From the NCBI RefSeq assembly GCF_001625215.2, contig NC_030381.2, forward strand, positions 43,770,689-43,834,688: a stretch of 64,000 nt of DNA, written 5' to 3'. A program made the position numbers and the translations under genes. Source of the DNA: Daucus carota subsp. sativus (taxonomy: Eukaryota; Streptophyta; Magnoliopsida; Apiales; Apiaceae). The notes beneath the pieces are model-generated. The model searched no databases, was not told the DNA's origin, and saw nothing but the letters and a program-made list of their open reading frames with translations. The number at the start of each line of letters is the position of its first letter. The first letter of the stretch is position 1. Positions 1-64,000 of this stretch are shown piece by piece.

Positions 1-310
1 GCCATTGATAACTTAGTTTTTTAAAGTTCAGTGTTACAGTAGCACAAATGGTGTTACCATAGGCCTATAGTTACAGCTCATTTAGTGTTACCAAAGCAAA
101 TCAAAGTGTAGGCATAGAGGTGTATGGTTACACTTTTTGAGGTGTAACCAAAAAATGAAAATATGTTACCCTAGACCCCTATGGTAGCACCGATTTTAGT
201 TACGATCCTGTTTTGTGAAAAAGTGTTACCATAGCCCTTTTTTGCACTTTCAGCAACACTTTCTGGCCTTTATTCACACTTTTTTGGTTGTTACAATAGG
301 CCACTTATGG
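1..310. mobile_element. CACTA-like subterminal repeat field (partial)
   Basis: A short motif close to GTGTTACCATAG recurs about seven times in both orientations, near 31, 51, 93, 133, 150, 163 and 222. Clustered short motifs like this are typical of the subterminal regions of CACTA (En/Spm) DNA transposons. No transposase and no CACTA terminus are visible, and the left side is cut by the window edge. The family assignment is therefore an inference from the repeat style. Confidence 0.4.
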
Positions 311-14872: not shown

Positions 14873-15109
14873 CTCCCTCCATCCGCAATTAGATGACCCC
14901 GTTGATTTTGGGCACACAATTTAAGGTTCATTGACCGCATAGCTACCTGACTTATTTTTAAAATTTTATTTTCGCAAATAAATATTTAAATATGAAATTT
15001 TTATTTACAAAACAAAAAAATAAAAAAATAAATTTCGGAAGTAAACAGTCAATGCACCTAAAATTAGGTGCCCAAAGTCAACGGGTCATCTAATTTGAGA
15101 TGGAGGTAG
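14873..15109. mobile_element. Stowaway-like MITE
   Basis: Ends CTCCCTCCATCCGCAATTAG and, in reverse, CTACCTCCATCTCAAATTAG are followed on both sides by ATGACCC and a TTGA(T/C)TTTGGGC stretch. A TA duplication flanks the element (14871-14872 and 15110-15111). At 237 bp with no coding sequence, it is a typical Tc1/mariner-derived MITE. Confidence 0.8.
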
Positions 15110-15125
15110 TAACAAATAAAGCTAT

Positions 15126-15182
15126 CTATGAGAACCTGCAAACTTGCAAGAGTATGAGAACCTGCAAACTTGCAAGAGTATG
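15126..15182. repeat. Two-copy tandem repeat, ~28-bp unit
   Basis: The unit TATGAGAACCTGCAAACTTG plus CAAGAG occurs twice in immediate succession. It looks like a recent replication-slippage duplication next to the Stowaway element. Confidence 0.8.
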
Positions 15183-15434
15183 ACTATAGAGTATATGATG
15201 ATATTTTCATAAAATTATTCATTAATTAGTTTTAATATGTCACCCCAATTTTTAGTTAAGAATTTTTGAAGATTGGAGCTGCTGTGAATCGCTCTGCAAT
15301 TCAATTCATGATGTGAATATAGGGACAACAAACGAGAACTCATGAACTACAGAAATTACAAAAACTAAAACAAGAACAAACTTGTAAATCAAAGAAATAA
15401 TATAATTAATCGACAAAAACACAAGTAATAATAG

Positions 15435-15519
15435 GTTCCCTCAGAAAACTGATAAGAATAAATCTCAATCAAATAATATTCAGAATTAGCATGGTCAGAT
15501 ATGAGACATCACAGGGAAC
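15435..15519 (-). ncRNA. Candidate box C/D snoRNA, unit 4 of cluster
   Basis: Read on the minus strand, a GTTCCC stem arm, one unpaired base and a C box GTGATGT (15512-15506) open the unit. A D box CTGA (15444-15441) followed directly by GGGAAC closes it. The stem is a perfect 6 bp and brings C and D boxes together as in true C/D snoRNAs. An internal CTGA at 15483-15480 is a possible D' box. Total length is 85 nt. The RNA would guide 2'-O-methylation of rRNA or snRNA; its target is not identified here. This is the strongest of the four units. Confidence 0.65.
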
Positions 15520-15579
15520 AACATTTTCTCAAAATTAAATCTAAACAATCAAAATATATAATTTAATCAAAGTGTAAGA

Positions 15580-15673
15580 TGCTCAGATAAATGTTGGAAA
15601 AAGGTAAATTCCCTGGCCTTCTACAAAAGAAGGCCTCATAATGAGCTGGGATTAACACATTATCATCATCGCA
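15580..15673 (-). ncRNA. Candidate box C/D snoRNA, unit 3 of cluster
   Basis: The minus strand shows a TGC arm, one base, C box ATGATGA (15669-15663), then a D box CTGA (15586-15583) followed by GCA. The geometry is the same as unit 4, with a shorter stem. The 94-nt body contains a strong internal hairpin, GGCCTTC...GAAGGCC, which is unusual between guide regions. The target is unknown. Confidence 0.55.
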
Positions 15674-15724
15674 AAGCAATTAAACTTTTACATTATTTAA
15701 AAATTGATAAAACCGATATTCGAT

Positions 15725-15840
15725 GCTTCAGTAAAATCCGATAAAATCATATGAAAATGTGGCTAAACCAGGTGGTTCTCCCTGTAAACAGGGTCCTGGC
15801 TCCACCACACCTCATTCCAGTGGATTACAACATCACAAGC
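15725..15840 (-). ncRNA. Candidate box C/D snoRNA, unit 2 of cluster
   Basis: The minus strand shows a GCT arm, one base, C box GTGATGT (15836-15830), then a D box CTGA (15731-15728) followed by AGC. At 116 nt it is long for the class. Its middle folds as nested hairpins (GGTGG..CCACC around CCCTGT..ACAGGG). The fold leaves open that this unit is a different structured RNA. Confidence 0.45.
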
Positions 15841-15909
15841 ACTAATCCATGAAATTCGATCATTACAACATTATCAAAATAAAACAAATATCGCAAACAC
15901 ATATAATGA

Positions 15910-15993
15910 GGCTCAGTGAAATTCAGCTCTATCGATCAAGAATTTTCTGAAGCAGAACTGGCATTAAAGCTGTGTTTATCAATCATCACTGCC
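15910..15993 (-). ncRNA. Candidate box C/D snoRNA, unit 1 of cluster
   Basis: The minus strand shows a GGC arm, one base, C box GTGATGA (15989-15983), then a D box CTGA (15916-15913) followed by GCC. A second CTGA at 15926-15923 lies 10 bases before the D box. Length is 84 nt. It is the unit nearest the promoter at about 16.26 kb. The target is unknown. Confidence 0.5.
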
Positions 15994-16225
15994 AATATCA
16001 TATACAAGCAAGATATAAAGATGTAACCCAATATCATTGGAGCACAAATCTATGGGAAGTAGAAAAGGCTCAAGCAGAGAGGATTTCACTTTTATTTGCG
16101 CACAGATAAAATCCTGGAAATCATTTACATAAATCAACAAGAAGAACTAAGTGCGATATCTTTGAATAGATGAAAGAAAACGAATGAATTATTGAAAGAG
16201 ATTGTGGCCTCTGCAGATGTTAGTA

Positions 16226-16298
16226 AAACCCTAATTAGATATTGAGAGGAGCTGCCGTTCTTTATATGCACTTTCTTTGGGCTTCATGGTGAGGCCCA
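16226..16298 (-). promoter_or_regulatory. Promoter of the snoRNA cluster: site II elements, TATA, telo-box
   Basis: In minus-strand order there are TGGGCC (16298-16293), a second site II motif in the opposite sense (TGGGCT on plus, 16278-16283), a TATA box GCATATAAAG (16269-16260) and, about 30 bases after it, a telo-box whose plus-strand sequence is AAACCCTAA (16226-16234). Site II plus telo-box next to the start is the hallmark of plant ribosomal-protein and snoRNA-cluster genes. It therefore fits a growth-regulated Pol II transcript that runs left into the four C/D-like units. Confidence 0.6.
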
Positions 16299-16503
16299 TA
16301 ATGTACTTTAAGCCTCGTTCTTTTATCAGTCTGATTCTATAGCTTCATGCCTTTAGTATGCTTTTATGTTTTTGGTTGGGCTACTGGTGTGTTTAAAAAT
16401 CGAATAACACGACCCAACCTAATCTTATATCGGCCCAATAACTGAATCAATCAAATTTGATGAATAGTTTGACCGAATAAATTGGCTTAGGTCAAAAAGT
16501 CAG

Positions 16504-17854: not shown

Positions 17855-20195
17855 CTATACACCCCTATGGAATAAATTATTAACGAGTTTATGAGCAAAA
17901 TCAGATGGAATGTCTGTGACTTTACCGTAACTGAAGGCAGGTTCGGTATCAGAATTAGAATCAGATGTTGATTCTGAACTGTCAGACATAGAAGCAGGGG
18001 AAGATCCTGGCACAGGGGCTGATGCAGGGGCATCAAGATCCGAAGCAGGGGCAAGGACTAATTCAGGGGCTGACTCAGAAGCCGAGGCTGGTGCTGACAG
18101 GGGGGAATATTCAGGAGCATTAGTAGAATCAGATTCTGAAGATGAAGGCGAAGGCGAATCTAAGTCAGAGGAGGACTCGGATAGTGAAGGCAAAGGAGAT
18201 ACAGAAGCAGAAGTAGCTTCATTGGATGATGTGGAAGGTGACTTCAATGCAGCTTCCAAATCACTTTCTTGCTGACTATTTGTTCGGTTGAAATCTACAT
18301 CTTCCTCTAGAGAGATTGGACTCGCCGCCACTACTTCATCTGTAGGCGGTGGTAGTATAAGGCTCGAAGCATATGGCACTTCTGTCTTAGGTATCCACAA
18401 ATCACCGTCAATAAAATGTGTGGCAGTGAAACGCAGGATCCTTTCGGTTGTCAGCTCTTTAATGCCAGGCCATTTCACTCTCTGGTCTTTTGAGGAGCTA
18501 GGCCCTTTGTTGTTGAACTCAGTGTAAAAAAGAGTGTTGAGTGCAAACGTGTCATTCCAGGGCAAGTATCCCTGAGACTGGATCACATCGTCGATGTAGG
18601 ACTCCATTATGATTGTTCTTGAGTACTCCTTCCAGGGTCTAGCAAGGTATGTTTTGAACTTACTTTTGTCAGACTCGAGGGATGAGTCAGCAGTGATTGT
18701 GCAATTTTGAAGAACGATTCCGGTTGGTTGTCGGACATTTTTCCTGCCTTGTGCTGTGACAATGCATTGCTGGTTATTTAATGGCTTTCTTACTAAAAAT
18801 TGACAGTTCTGGAATACAACGGCTGCATCACCAAAAACAAAATCAATGGTGCCTGATATCACGCAGTCACGATAAAATTGTCGATAGGCATGAGTGTAAA
18901 GTGTGTCCTGATATCCGTCCATCCTGCAATTGTAGAAGATGGTTTTGTCAGCACTGACACGAAGTGCCACTGCCTGCTCCTTCTCAGACCCTGCTGTGTT
19001 CTCGAATCCAATGTCCTTTGCAATGAAATAATCTCCGCGAACAGCTGCAATAGCAACATGCATCATACATAATATTATTATATATTCTGTTGAAATATAG
19101 TATAAGATCCATTAATATAGCATTAATCATTTACTCATTTAGGGTCTTCCTCTAACACTTTAAGATTTTAGATTGACCGGTTCTCGAGACTTATAAATTA
19201 GTTAAATTTTGATGTAACTTACCAACTGTTGCGCTATGATAAGTGCTGGTTCCATCGACTCTGTTCAATTTTCCTGTAATCCTGGTCTTGCTGGGTCCAT
19301 CACCGATCATCATCACATGAGTCATATTCGAAAGGATCTCAACTTTCTCTTCGTACACACCTTCCTTAACATGAATAACAAATGTTGTATTACTAGATTT
19401 CGGTATATCCTTCAAAGCTTCGTTAATTGTTCGGTACTTGCCACTTCCATCCTTCGCAACAACAACGTCAGCCTCTGAACTATGTTTGGATTCCAAGAGT
19501 TTCCTCTTAAGAGGATCAATCCAAGCAGGGAATGACAAAAGACGACGGCCACGGACCACGGCTTTCTCATTATTCATTTTGGCAAAAGCTGTGGCAATTT
19601 CAGTAACCATAGCCAGGGAATTAGTTGTCATTTGCATGCCTAATTTCAAGGCCTCCCTCATGTTGGCCGAGGCTTCTCCTGTCGTGTTTTCGAAACCATC
19701 TAAGCAGGTTTCTTCAGATGTCATGGCACCACTTAGCCAAACCTTTAAATCCGCAAGAATTACATTAACCTCAGTAATGTCAAAATCTGCAAATTTGATA
19801 AATGTTCTCTCGAGGTCGTTTATGGACGTTTTTGCAAGATCGGTGCAGGTCCTGAGAGCTTCTTTTGTCATTGGATCTTTCTCGAGGTTTTCTAAAGTTA
19901 CAGATTTATTAAGAGCCTCTTTGATTCGCTTAATTGTTACATCCATTCCGATCTTTATTAATTCTTTCGGATCATCTGTTTGATTGTACTCTTTCGATGA
20001 CAGGCTTTTCACGCATGTATCTTGATAATCCACAGAGCTGCAAAGGGTGTTGATGGCCTTATTAGAAGTTGATATTTCTGGTGAACTGTTGTTGTCATTG
20101 CTACCAATCAAGCCTATTGCGGCACCAACGACCATAGCCACCAAGAGCAAGGAAGAGACGGCTAGCACAAAAATTCTTTTATGATTACTGTCCAT
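17855..20195 (-). CDS. Pectin methylesterase with PMEI pro-domain and acidic Ser/Pro tail
   Basis: The exons are 20195-19223 and 19044-17855, giving 720 residues. I chose the ATG at 20195 because MDSNHKR leads straight into a signal anchor (residues 8-30). The PMEI-like pro-domain covers about 45-200. Two basic processing motifs (RGRRLL, KRKLL) separate it from the esterase domain (about 242-553). Catalytic residues are visible: Asp371 in GYQDTLY, Asp392 in GTIDFVFG and Arg460 in LARPW. The enzyme demethylesterifies homogalacturonan in the cell wall. Residues 557-720 are an unusual Ser/Pro/Asp/Glu-rich tail; a related extension is known in AtPME21-type enzymes. The single intron sits at the conserved SATV/AVRGD position. 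A longer upstream reading to 20270 lacks an anchor at its start and is less likely. Confidence 0.92.
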
Positions 20196-21420
20196 TTTTG
20201 TGCTAGCAAATCCAGAATGAATATCTTCCTTGCTCAAATGGCTTTTGTAATAATCGAGACAAAACAACACACAAATGTATGATTAATTAAAGAGAAGAGG
20301 GTCCGGAACAAGGTAACGACCCTCTCCTCAATAATGTAAAGTTGTGTGGGATAACCTCTAAAGAGGTTCTGGAGAAATGAAAGAACATGAAGATCACTTT
20401 TATTATGCATTTGGCCAACATGTTTAGATTCCTTATTTTTCGTAGATAATCTGTGGCTTGAAGGTTTTGGACTAGGTTCTCGGGTAGGATAGTAGTAAAT
20501 TGTTCGTGCCTTATATTTGTGGAACAATTATTACAACAAAACATGCACAATCGAGCTGACTAAAATATATACACATACATTTAGGTGTTGTGAAGCTCAA
20601 GGCTTGTCAGGATTTTATTACTGTGAATCTGTGATAACATGGAGCGCAACTTTATGTTTGGTTATGTAAGTTCATTCCAACTTGGAATTTCTATTGTCTA
20701 AAAAAAACTTAGAATTCTAAATTTTTTTATAGAAATTTGTTTATCAGAATTTCTAAAAATTGCTACATTATTTTAATTGGAGCAACAAATGTGTATTTTT
20801 TTTCTGCATCTTAGCTGTTTTTATATGATAATATTTTTATAATATAATGTATAAGTAAAACAAAATTAAAAATTCCAAAGTTCAATGGATAGTTTGGTTT
20901 ATTATATATTCTTTCTACATAAATCAAATTTATTTACTATTATAAATTTTATTTCCTATTTTAGCGCATTGCATCTCGATATTAATGCATTTTAGAGCTT
21001 GATTGTGAAATAAAAAATGAACTAAATAAATAGTTACTTTGTTTTCAGATCGCTTTTACATATAGAATATTCAAATTTTTTGATTTAAAAAATATTATAA
21101 TGACATCTTCAGCAATCCAACTTATATTAAATATAAAACTAAAACTAGTAGCATCGCACATAAATAGCATCTGTAATCAATGTTGAGAACTATTAGTTAC
21201 ATCAATTAATATTGAAGCAATAAATATCTCTAAAATATGAAAAATTTTATTGTGAAAGATGAGTTGTTGTTGTATCCAATTATCCATTATCATTTCAGAA
21301 TTGATGCGAGTCTTATAATTTTTCAAAATATTATATAATTTTTTCTTGAAAAACCTATTAAAACTCATACGAAAAGACATAAAATATCAAAATATAAAAT
21401 ATTAATATCCAAAAACTGTA
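20196..21420. other. 5' flank of the pectinesterase gene and AT-rich spacer
   Basis: The stretch 20196-20560 is probably promoter and leader of the minus-strand pectinesterase. Its overlapping minus-strand frames match nothing. From 20.6 to 21.4 kb the sequence is very AT-rich, with no supported gene. Confidence 0.4.
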
Positions 21421-33402: not shown

Positions 33403-33474
33403 GTGGCTGTAGTTTAGTGGTAAGAATTCCACGTTGTGGCCGTGGAGACCTGGGCTCGAATCCCAGCAGCCACA
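33403..33474 (+). tRNA. tRNA-His(GTG), nuclear
   Basis: The 72-nt cloverleaf has acceptor stem GTGGCTG/CAGCCAC, anticodon stem CCACG/CGTGG with loop TTGTGGC (anticodon GTG at 33436-33438), and T arm CTGGG..TTCGAAT-type (GGGCTCGAATCCC). A T-run at 33480-33484 could terminate Pol III. There is no intron and no encoded CCA. The extra G at position -1 of tRNA-His is added after transcription. Confidence 0.95.
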
Positions 33475-36981: not shown

Positions 36982-38676
36982 TTAAAACAAGCCAGCATTG
37001 TATGGAACACCAGTACTAGGCAACCAAAAATCTCCAGCTAAGAAATTCGAGACAGTAAAGTTAGCTGCGTCTGAGTAATTTATCACATGATAAGCCTCCC
37101 ATGTAACCCTTTTACTAGTATCTGATCCACCTCCTCTGTTGTTATATTCTGCATAGTAAGATGTATTAAGAGCAAAATCTCCAGACCAGGCAATCCAGCC
37201 TGCAGGATCGACCAAATTGTCGATGAAAGAATTTAGGTAAACGGCTCTGGAATATTGTTTCCAGGGCCGTCCCAGATAAGTCTTTGCTGAGGCCATGTAT
37301 TCTGCTTCGCGAATAGTACAATTTTGTATTGAAGTGCCCGTGTTTTGGTTAATATCAGTTCTGCCTTGAGCTGTGATTGCATTGAACTGATCTTGCATAG
37401 GTAGCCGCGGATAAATGTTGCAGTTTTGAAACACGACTGCAGCGTTTCCAAATATGAAATCTACTGTTCCGTAGATGTTGCATTCCCTGTAGAATTGTCT
37501 CAATGTGTGAGCATATAGTGTGTCTTGGTACCCTTCAAAGCTACAATGGTAAAATGTTGATAGATCAGCTCCGTTTCTGACAGCGACAGCTTGATGCATC
37601 ACGGCTCCTGCTGTGTTCCTGAATGTTATATTTACTGCCACAAAGCCTACTCCAGTTACAGCTGCAATAGAGTGTAAATCAGATAACTCAATAAGCTACA
37701 AGGTTAAAGCATTGCCTCATGAAACAATGTAACTATGTAAGTGAAAGTTAAGTATCTGTCAAATTACAGAACAAATGCTTGGTAACTTACCAAATGTAGC
37801 ACTATTAAAGGTTGTCCACCCTTCAACTACACTGCGGTTTCCAGTAATTATAGTCTGATCGATTCCATCTCCGATCATCATCAAGTACCTTTTAGATTTG
37901 GCTATGTAAACATGCTCCTCATAAACCCCAGCAGCGATATAAATCAAAAAATAACCATTAGTACAGTCAGTATTATTAGGAGCAGCTGCCACCGCGTCAG
38001 TAATGGTAGTGAAATCTCCACTTCCATCAGGGTTCACCACAACCGACTGATTTACATTCACAGAATTACCGCCTGGATAAAGCTTGAGACCCGAGTTGAG
38101 TGGCTTTCTATCTTTCAGCAACCTTCCTTCCGTTGTACTAGGATTCCAGGCGTACTTGAAAATTGCGAGGGCTACACTGTTCAGCATGTTTCCATCAGAA
38201 AGCGGCGTTCCGAGAGCAATTCTAATGGCTGAAAGTGGATTTATGGCCTCAAGTCCATCTAAACAAGTTTGATAATTTGTGAGGGTTGCACTAAGCAAGC
38301 TCAACAATTCACTGGCTGTCGGGCCATCAATCTTATTCGTCAAATTTAAACTTTCCAGAGTTTTAACAAAGAAATCAATATTCAAGCTTGTAAGAAGCTG
38401 ACAGTCTTCAAGAGCATGGATTGTGTATTCCTGCAATCCAATCCGGAGCTCGAGGTAACCGTTTACCATTGAAAGCACATTTTCTGTTGATGATATTGAT
38501 TGCTTGAGTATAAACCTGCCATATTCTTGTATGGATCCAAAATCGTATTGCAGACGCATCGAATTGCAGAAAGATGGAAAAGGAGTGGAGTCACAGATGA
38601 GTTCATCTGAGAGAGATTTCGACGGACTGAATAAACACAGAATGACAAGAAATGAAATGCAAGTAGAGGCATGCAT
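36982..38676 (-). CDS. Pectin methylesterase/pectin methylesterase inhibitor (type 2, secreted)
   Basis: The exons are 38676-37791 and 37661-36982, giving 521 residues. I chose the ATG at 38676 because it starts a clean signal peptide (MHASTCISFLVILCLFSPSK); the reading extends to 38778 but without that property. The PMEI pro-domain covers about 25-175, with its Cys residues in ELICDSTPFPSFC and YQTCLDGL. A GRLLK processing motif lies at about 184. The esterase domain runs from about 211 to 521 with catalytic Asp342 (GYQDTLY), Asp363 (GTVDFIFGNA) and Arg427 (LGRPWKQYSR). The product removes methyl esters from cell-wall pectin. The single intron is at the same position as in the pectinesterase at 17.9-20.2 kb, but the proteins are only distantly alike and this one has no tail. 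Confidence 0.93.
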
Positions 38677-53136: not shown

Positions 53137-54331
53137 TTACCAAGCCTGCAGCCATCCAGACATGTCATATCTGTATTGTCTCCGACTCAGTATTGTTTCT
53201 GATTTCTTTCCTCTGGTCTTCTTCTTCCCATCTTTCTTAGGTGACACTAGGCTTTCAACGAAAGTCATCCCCACTCGAAAATCATTTGGCAATCCAAGAA
53301 CTTTTGTATCATAGAGTTTAGAGAACTGTGCATTGGAAACTAGTAAGACAGACTGACCATGTTCCGGAAAACCTGAGCTATCGTTCCGTAAATCCAACGA
53401 CGCAACATGTGAAACATCAGACAAAACAACAGACAATTTAGTCCAGGATTCCACCACCCCATACTCCTTCATCAGGTACAACTCGCTTACACTATTAATT
53501 ACATTAGAGAATAAACAAAGGCACCCTTTAAGAACCCCAAGTCTGGGAAACACTGAGCTCGAATCAAAAACCCCAATTGGCAATGGCACCCCTGAGAATT
53601 CTTTCTCAGCTATATTATATGCCCCAATAATCATCGATTTTTCACTCAACCAATGAAGACACCCTTCAAGAAAAATCCCTGCAACATAAGCATCCCTCTT
53701 AAGATCAAAGGGGGGGAACGCAACCCTCTTCCATTGCTTTGCTTTAAGCATGAAAACATAAGAAACAGTCCCAGAGCCAGATATAGCAACAACTGCATAA
53801 TCATCACAGGAGAAATCATAGCCGAACCCAAACGTATTGCAACCAGATAATTGATAAAAGCGACTGGGCAGAAGAGGTAATTTCCTGGACTCTAAAGTTG
53901 TAGGATTAAGCACGTACAAAGTTGTGTCTAACCGGTCGTTTTCAACTAAAACTAACCCATCACAGGAACCCCAAACCTTAGTCCATCTATTCGAATGATA
54001 AAATTTCAACTTTTTCTTAGTCTCTCGCTCGGCTTCCATCCTGGCAGGAACTGTCTTTAGAAGTCTTTTGCAATCGGGGTTCTTGTAGTCGTACCTGGCA
54101 TCATGAAAAAATTCGGTACTGTACAGGGTACAAGGGTCGGAATAGATGGAAATGAGAATGAGTTTGGTTACGGAGGCTCTGGTGACATGGGTCTGGATTA
54201 AATTAGGGTCAGAGGGCTTTCCATGATCTCGAAACACACTTACATTGCCCGAGTGATTTAGCAGGAAGGCGAGTGAAAACCTCTGATAATAACTCTTTGG
54301 GAAGAAGATTGATATAATCTAGTCTTCCCAT
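53137..54331 (-). pseudogene. F-box protein gene, frameshifted copy
   Basis: The ATG at 54331 starts MGRLDYINLLPKELLSEVFT and a normal F-box (to about residue 42). Then a 5-base gap relative to the intact paralog (CCCT-CTGACCC here, CCCTAATATCTGACCC there) puts a TGA in frame directly after the F-box. The rest of the gene (ORF 54237-53137) is open and about 85% identical to the intact copy, including NRWTKVWGSCDGLVLV and YNIAEKEFSGVPLPIGVFD. The natural product would be a 42-residue F-box stub. Reinitiation downstream would give an F-box-less protein. The break looks recent. Confidence 0.85.
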
Positions 54332-62116: not shown

Positions 62117-63322
62117 TTACCAAGCCTTCAGCCATCCAGACATGTCATATCTGCATTGTCTCGGCCTCGGTATTGTTTCTGATTTCTTTTCTCTGGTATT
62201 CTTGTTCCCATCTTTCTCAGGTGACACTAGGCTTTCAACAAAAGTCATCCCCACTCGAAAATCATTTGGCAATCCAAGAACTTCCGTATCATAGAGGTCT
62301 GAAAACTTTGCATTGGAAACTAGCAAGACAGAGTCACCATGTTCCGGAAAGCCTGAGCTATCGTCCCGAAAATTTAACGACGCAACATGAGAAACATCAG
62401 ACAGAACAACAGACAATTTAGTCCAGGATCCCACCACCCCATACTCCTTCATCACGTACAACTCACTTACACTATTAATCACATTAGAGAATAAACAAAG
62501 GCACCCCTTAAGAACCCCAAGCCTGGGAAACACCGAGTTCGAATCAAAAACCCCAATTGGCAATGGCACCCCTGAGAATTCTTTCTCAGCTATATTATAT
62601 GCCCAAATAATCATCGATTTTTCACTCAACCAATGAAGAGACCCTTCAAGAAAAATCCCAGCAACCCTCTTAATTAGATCAAAGGGGGGATCCGCAACCC
62701 TCTTCCATTGACTTGCTTTAAGCATGGAAACATAAGCAACAGTAGCAGAGCCAGAGAGAGACGATATAGCAACAACTGCATAATCATCACAGGAGAAATC
62801 ATAGCCAAACCCAAACGTATTGCAAGTAGATAATTGATAAAATTGCAGGGGCAGAAGAGGTAATTTCCTGGACTCTAAAGTTGTAGGATTAAGCACATAC
62901 AAAGCTGGGTGTAACAGGTCGTTTTGAACTAAAATTAACCCATCACACGAACCCCAAACCTTAGTCCATCTATTTGAAGAATTTTTAAAATTCAACTTTT
63001 TCTTAGTCTCTCGCTGGGCTTTCATCCTGGCAAGAACTGTCTTTAGAAGTTTTTTACAATTGGGGTTCTTGTAGTCGTACCTGGCATCATGAAAAAAGTC
63101 GGTAGTGTACATGCCACAAGGGTCGGAATGGAATGAAATGAGCATGAGTTTAGTTACGGAGGCTCTGATGAGATGCGTCTGGATTAAATTGGGGTCAGAT
63201 ATTAGGGATTTCCATGATTTCGAAACACACTTACATTGCCCAAGTGATTTAGCAGGGAGACGAATGAAAACATCAGATAATAACTCTTTGGGAAGAAGAT
63301 TGATGTAATCTCGTCTTCCCAT
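62117..63322 (-). CDS. F-box protein (F-box/kelch-associated type), intact copy
   Basis: A single exon of 401 residues. I chose the ATG at 63322, which starts MGRRDYINLLPKELLSDVFI; the twelve codons upstream are not conserved in the paralog's layout. The F-box spans about 6-46 (LPKELLSDVFIRLPAKSLGQ). Then come a short linker, CDGLILVQN and LYVLNPTTLESRKLPLLP, and an FBA/kelch-like beta-rich half including FGFGYDFSCDDYAVV and GIFLEGSLHWLSEKS. The tail is basic. It resembles At3g06240/CPR1-type F-box proteins and should act as an SCF ubiquitin-ligase adaptor; the target is unknown. A TATA-like AATATAAATA lies about 60 bases upstream. Its tandem paralog at 53.1-54.3 kb is frameshifted. Confidence 0.92.
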   Translation of the reverse strand: MGRRDYINLLPKELLSDVFIRLPAKSLGQCKCVSKSWKSLISDPNLIQTHLIRASVTKLMLISFHSDPCGMYTTDFFHDARYDYKNPNCKKLLKTVLARMKAQRETKKKLNFKNSSNRWTKVWGSCDGLILVQNDLLHPALYVLNPTTLESRKLPLLPLQFYQLSTCNTFGFGYDFSCDDYAVVAISSLSGSATVAYVSMLKASQWKRVADPPFDLIKRVAGIFLEGSLHWLSEKSMIIWAYNIAEKEFSGVPLPIGVFDSNSVFPRLGVLKGCLCLFSNVINSVSELYVMKEYGVVGSWTKLSVVLSDVSHVASLNFRDDSSGFPEHGDSVLLVSNAKFSDLYDTEVLGLPNDFRVGMTFVESLVSPEKDGNKNTREKKSETIPRPRQCRYDMSGWLKAW

Positions 63323-64000
63323 GTTGATGATGAGCACTATACCCAAAACACTTAACAACGCACCTTAGACTCCAACCGAGTATTTATATTTGGGGTGTTC
63401 TGGATTCTTCATATTTTGGGTGTTCTGGATTCTTTTTTTTTTTTATTACTAGTATACATAAAACACCTAAAAACACCTAACAACGCAACCCTCAACTCTA
63501 ACTGAGTATTTAAATTTGAGATGTTCTCAATTCTTCGCTTAGTCTTTGACAATTTGATGCCTATACATGATATGTGATTGATAAAAAAAATTATAAATTG
63601 TATATTTTTTTTTTAAAACCAAAATTGTATATATTTTTGTATATTAAGTTTATAAGAACATTATTGAGCACTGGGAACATAAGGAAAATATTTTTTTTGA
63701 TGTGTTTAATAAACTTGTTCTTTAATGAGGTAAATTTTATTCATAGACAATTTTTAAATATTAGAAAAATATGTGTGTTTCAATTTAAAAACACAAAAGA
63801 AAGAACGTATATTCACAATTTATAATTTTGTAAACTTTCTTATCTCAATAGTTAGATATTTGTTTTTCAATTAAATATTTTGGGTCCCTTCAAATTTATT
63901 TTATATATTCGGCACTTTATATACATTTGGTTATTTTTAATATTTTTCTTATTATTGAAAGAAAAAAAAAGAAATTCAATCTTTTTAGAATTCTAACAGA
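63323..64000. repeat. Duplicated F-box upstream region, copy 2
   Basis: Parallels 54.37-55.0 kb. The block ACTGAGTATTTA(T/A)ATTTG(G/A)G occurs twice here (63375 and 63500), so the proximal promoter itself seems partly duplicated. The window ends inside this block. Confidence 0.7.

Follow-up and report, generated by a model that had tools for sequence, protein, structure and literature searches.

A probable cluster of four box C/D snoRNA genes with a Site II/telo-box promoter in Daucus carota subsp. sativus

The region at positions 15435-16298 of the analysed stretch of Daucus carota subsp. sativus DNA (64,000 nucleotides (nt) of contig NC_030381.2, hereafter the window) is very probably a plant small nucleolar RNA (snoRNA) gene cluster of the ordinary kind. 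It looks like one plant gene, the transcript of which would be cut into four guide RNAs for the methylation of ribosomal RNA (rRNA) or splicing RNAs. In addition, the spacing of the four units and their shared strand suggest one precursor transcript common to all members. The first-pass annotation had read the region as a snoRNA cluster, and this interpretation is right in kind, because three units pass the Rfam thresholds, unit 2 has paralogs above threshold, a Site II/telo-box pair is present, and the snoR53Y unit pairs with its targets. One of the four units may possibly have shifted its target within this gene of known kind.

To search for box C/D units, both strands of the window were scanned for a stem of at least 3 bp (G-U pairs allowed), one unpaired base, the C box RTGATGW, 55-110 nt, the D box CTGA, and a matching stem arm. 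We found exactly four units, all on the minus strand, and they are the same four that had been proposed from their common geometry. The C box starts and D box ends are at 15989/15913 for unit 1 (3-bp stem), 15836/15728 for unit 2 (5-bp stem), 15669/15583 for unit 3 (3-bp stem), and 15512/15441 for unit 4, for which the perfect stem of 6 bp claimed previously was recovered. Thus, the C box, D box, and terminal stem of a box C/D snoRNA are present in four of four units. For comparison, 200 first-order Markov (Markov-1) sequences of 64 kb each, scanned on both strands, contained 0.58 units per 64 kb on average (maximum 3), and no 600-bp stretch of them held two or more. Furthermore, the longest listed open reading frame overlapping 15000-16500 has 53 codons, in agreement with the earlier statement that no protein frame accounts for the stretch.

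The comparison with Rfam at gathering score gave a name to three of the units. Unit 1 is the box C/D snoRNA snoZ223 (RF00135; minus strand, 15906-15996; 66.4 bits, gathering score 45), unit 3 is snoR69Y (RF01198; minus strand, 15576-15679; 63.9 bits, gathering score 45), and unit 4 is snoR53Y (RF01279; minus strand, 15434-15519; 65.7 bits, gathering score 43). Unit 2 (minus strand, 15725-15840) is aligned end to end with snoZ278 (RF00201; E = 8.6e-5 with 1.1 kb searched), at 33.7 bits. Meanwhile, two paralogous clusters were found in the same genome, at approximately 10.228 Mb of G000:C3 and approximately 28.888 Mb of G000:C6, and both have a paralog of unit 2 above threshold in the same slot. 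The C3 and C6 clusters differ from that of the window in that they have U36a and snoR97 (C3 also snoR134), whereas snoR53Y was not found in either of them.

All three clusters carry Site II, telo-box, and TATA elements. In the window, two Site II motifs lie at 16278-16298 on the minus strand (TGGGCC at 16298-16293 and AGCCCA at 16283-16278, in transcript sense), and two further motifs lie at 16377 and 16432. They are followed by a TATA box (TATAAA; minus strand, 16261-16266) and, 32 nt downstream of it, by a telo-box (minus strand, 16226-16234; plus-strand letters AAACCCTAA). Both the telo-box and Site II thus precede the first snoRNA by less than 1 kb, which is what characterizes plant TeloSII loci. 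The Site II/telo-box pair has been described for plant snoRNA loci (PMC4660826, PMC3022908), and for non-intronic Arabidopsis snoRNA loci a telo-box is recorded at 37 of 40 loci, and at 34 it is combined with Site II or TEF1 (PMC3022908). A telo-box with at least two Site II motifs within 100 bp occurs at two places in the window, one being this promoter and the other lying near 2840, and in the 200 controls the same combination occurs 0.075 times on average (maximum 1). The second place, near 2680-2840, was judged by eye only and does not have the look of a promoter. The elements and the promoter class proposed in the first-pass annotation were right, and the order differs: it is Site II, TATA, telo-box in the window and Site II, telo-box, TATA in both paralogs.

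The published targets of snoR53Y in Arabidopsis are 18S A801 and U6 A48 (PMC8053127), and the D' guide of unit 4 (minus strand, 15485-15494; D' box CTGA at 15483-15480) fits both of these target kinds. Against the U6 of the same genome (L014), it forms 10 Watson-Crick pairs and one G-U pair, with D+5 at nt 48, which is an A; 15 of 2000 shuffles reach the 10-nt U6 match. Against an 18S fragment of the same genome (L044, identified by SSU_rRNA_eukarya at 192 bits), it forms ten consecutive Watson-Crick pairs with D+5 at CATT[A]GCATGG, a site that was equated with A801 through the Arabidopsis site list and not by counting positions. The complementarity expected of a guide RNA was thus found for this unit.

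For unit 3, the result is more complex. Arabidopsis snoR69Y is assigned to 25S C2949 through an 8-bp duplex that is called weak and less certain, and A2947 is the U29 site (PMC8053127). The guide of unit 3 (minus strand, 15641-15650) forms nine Watson-Crick pairs and one G-U pair with a large-subunit (LSU) rRNA stretch, before a D' box ATGA (15639-15636). On the LSU piece in L031, this D' box puts D+5 at an A two nt before the presumed C2949; the A2947 and C2949 sites were placed by the published 8-bp duplex and by their spacing, not by numbering. Two extra nt stand before D' in unit 3, and both the Rfam consensus and the C3 copy are without them. With these two nt and a kept NNGA D' box, D+5 moves from the presumed C2949 to A2947. 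In the C3 copy of snoR69Y, the C2949 register has a degenerate D' box (ATTA), and no NNGA site was obtained. It is conceivable, though rather unlikely, that unit 3 has switched its register from C2949 to A2947, so that the duplicated snoR69Y genes would split two neighbouring sites, or the window copy would serve both. Against the switch, the C2949 register of unit 3 likewise gives nine pairs (the box then reads TTAT), and sequence by itself is therefore not enough to choose between the two registers. We kept the estimate low because the old register pairs equally long and because control genomes match too, as described below. As a side observation, L031 comes from a contig filed as viral, which by eye begins with an apparent piece of eukaryotic LSU rRNA (1-170) and continues with unrelated sequence.

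Unit 3 was also considered as the U29 of this genome and rejected, as its match to RF00070 (SNORD29) is weak (28.7 of 48 bits, E = 0.247). Among the best 62 candidates from the 441 Mb, no other match had an E value of 1 or less, and the same search also gave matches at this cutoff in 6 of 14 control genomes. A pattern of C box, guide, and D' in the A2947 register gave seven rows at five places genome-wide: the window, C4, C8, and two C6 sites that contain a run of TGATGATGATG. The C4 and C8 places share an identical 38 nt and differ once over the 170 nt compared. These two stretches (L038 and L043, near 1480-1600) are nearly identical and C/D-like, and their guide is set in the A2947 register of 25S; Rfam gave no match for them at E up to 1. 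They could be true U29 genes, in which case unit 3 need not be the sole A2947 guide.

Unit 2 contains a perfect 12-nt complement of U6 nt 15-26 (minus strand, 15736-15747), which ends 4 nt before the D box and is reached by 3 of 2000 shuffles. As a U6 guide it was rejected, since guide position 4 is mismatched and the D+5 scan does not accept it; that scan yields only another weak U6 pairing (7 Watson-Crick and 2 G-U pairs before CGGA). Nine of the 12 nt are kept consecutively on C6 but not on C3, and the D+5 scan yields no U6 site for either paralog. The 18S copies L020 and L021 (contig C6) have approximately 340 nt of 18S and then the same other sequence (by eye), as if the truncated piece were itself repeated, and later 18S motifs were not found in L017-L021. 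Each of the two 25S matches is 150 nt long, and that of L032 is by eye a short insert in other DNA.

Several points weigh against a snoRNA cluster. Matching stem arms, claimed for all units, are present in all four, but the stems of units 1 and 3 are only 3 bp. The folds of units 1 and 4 are not better than those of shuffles (z = -0.62 and -1.27), and unit 2, unlike the other three, falls short of its own gathering score (33.7 vs 36 bits). The telo-box follows the TATA box, unlike in both paralogs. The guide of unit 1 seemed complementary to a presumed 25S stretch, and this pattern was not found in the genome assembly (0 matches); by our own reckoning, its D+5 on that stretch fits none of the listed Arabidopsis sites. 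The rRNA used for the targets of units 1 and 2 consisted of fragments, and this incompleteness counts here as well. Finally, expression of the four units is something we infer from their sequence, which also counts on this side.

There are two other ways to explain the region. The window cluster might be a decayed duplicate that is turning into a pseudogene, with working copies on C3 and C6. This is very unlikely, as the C and D boxes are intact in all four units and the promoter elements are present. Moreover, snoR69Y scores higher in the window than on C3 (57.2 bits) and was not found on C6, and unit 4 is the sole snoR53Y match in the genome (E up to 0.001). Alternatively, the snoRNAs might have no gene of their own and instead lie in an intron or untranslated region of a host, or belong to RNA read through from the upstream pectinesterase gene. 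Plant snoRNAs are sometimes intronic (PMC3022908), and the same-strand pectinesterase frames (20270-17855) end approximately 1.56 kb upstream of Site II at 16298. However, Site II, TATA, and telo-box elements lie between pectinesterase and unit 1, such a promoter is found in both paralogs, and no listed frame of more than 53 codons overlaps the stretch; we regard this explanation as the least likely of all. The ordinary plant snoRNA cluster is the reading we favour.

The first named snoRNA follows the TATA box after 270 nt in the window, compared with 142 nt on C3 and 154 nt on C6. The extra stretch holds a weak candidate H/ACA snoRNA with two hairpins (minus strand, 16019-16155; H box AAATAA at 16097, ACA at 16024, pockets 13-16 nt off). 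The descriptor used was post hoc, written after the candidate was seen; it fits four places per window strand and 0-4 per 64-kb strand in ten controls, and it recovers none of three known H/ACA RNAs from the paralogous clusters. The fold of the candidate is not better than shuffles (z = -0.38), and it is not an Rfam member (best SNORA79, 24.4 of 55 bits, E = 0.15). In the C3 cluster, a weak H/ACA match to snoR137 (L001, minus strand, 1725-1877; 26.9 of 44 bits, E = 0.16) lies between snoR134 and U36a.

Elsewhere in the window, there are minus-strand pectinesterase frames at 17855-20270 (with a PMEI domain, Pfam) and 36982-37641, and a plus-strand tRNA-His (GTG) at 33403-33474, called by ARAGORN and matched by the Rfam tRNA model. 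The minus-strand frames at 53137-54237 and 62117-63358 are alike by eye; the second is a Pfam F-box frame, and the first has no Pfam match.

These results add a snoRNA cluster that is well supported and has two paralogs in the same genome, and a small case of member loss and gain in plant snoRNA polycistrons after duplication. In addition, unit 3 offers a natural test case of whether a 2-nt indel can re-aim a methylation guide. Like the TeloSII polycistronic C/D clusters of plants (PMC4660826, PMC3022908), the window cluster contains several distinct snoRNAs that share an orientation, together with Site II, telo-box, and TATA elements, and it has no long protein frame. It differs from them in the telo-box that follows TATA, and its four-member set was not met in the parts of these sources at hand. 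Unit 4 resembles Arabidopsis snoR53Y in that its guide suits both site kinds, whereas unit 3 differs from Arabidopsis snoR69Y by its two extra nt and by D+5 on the presumed A2947 (PMC8053127). Neurospora CD27, in which one D' guide is predicted for both the U29/snR71 and snoR69Y/snR69 sites (PMC2780460), is similar in that a single guide element is predicted for two neighbouring sites, and different in that it is fungal and intronic and has a 15-bp guide.
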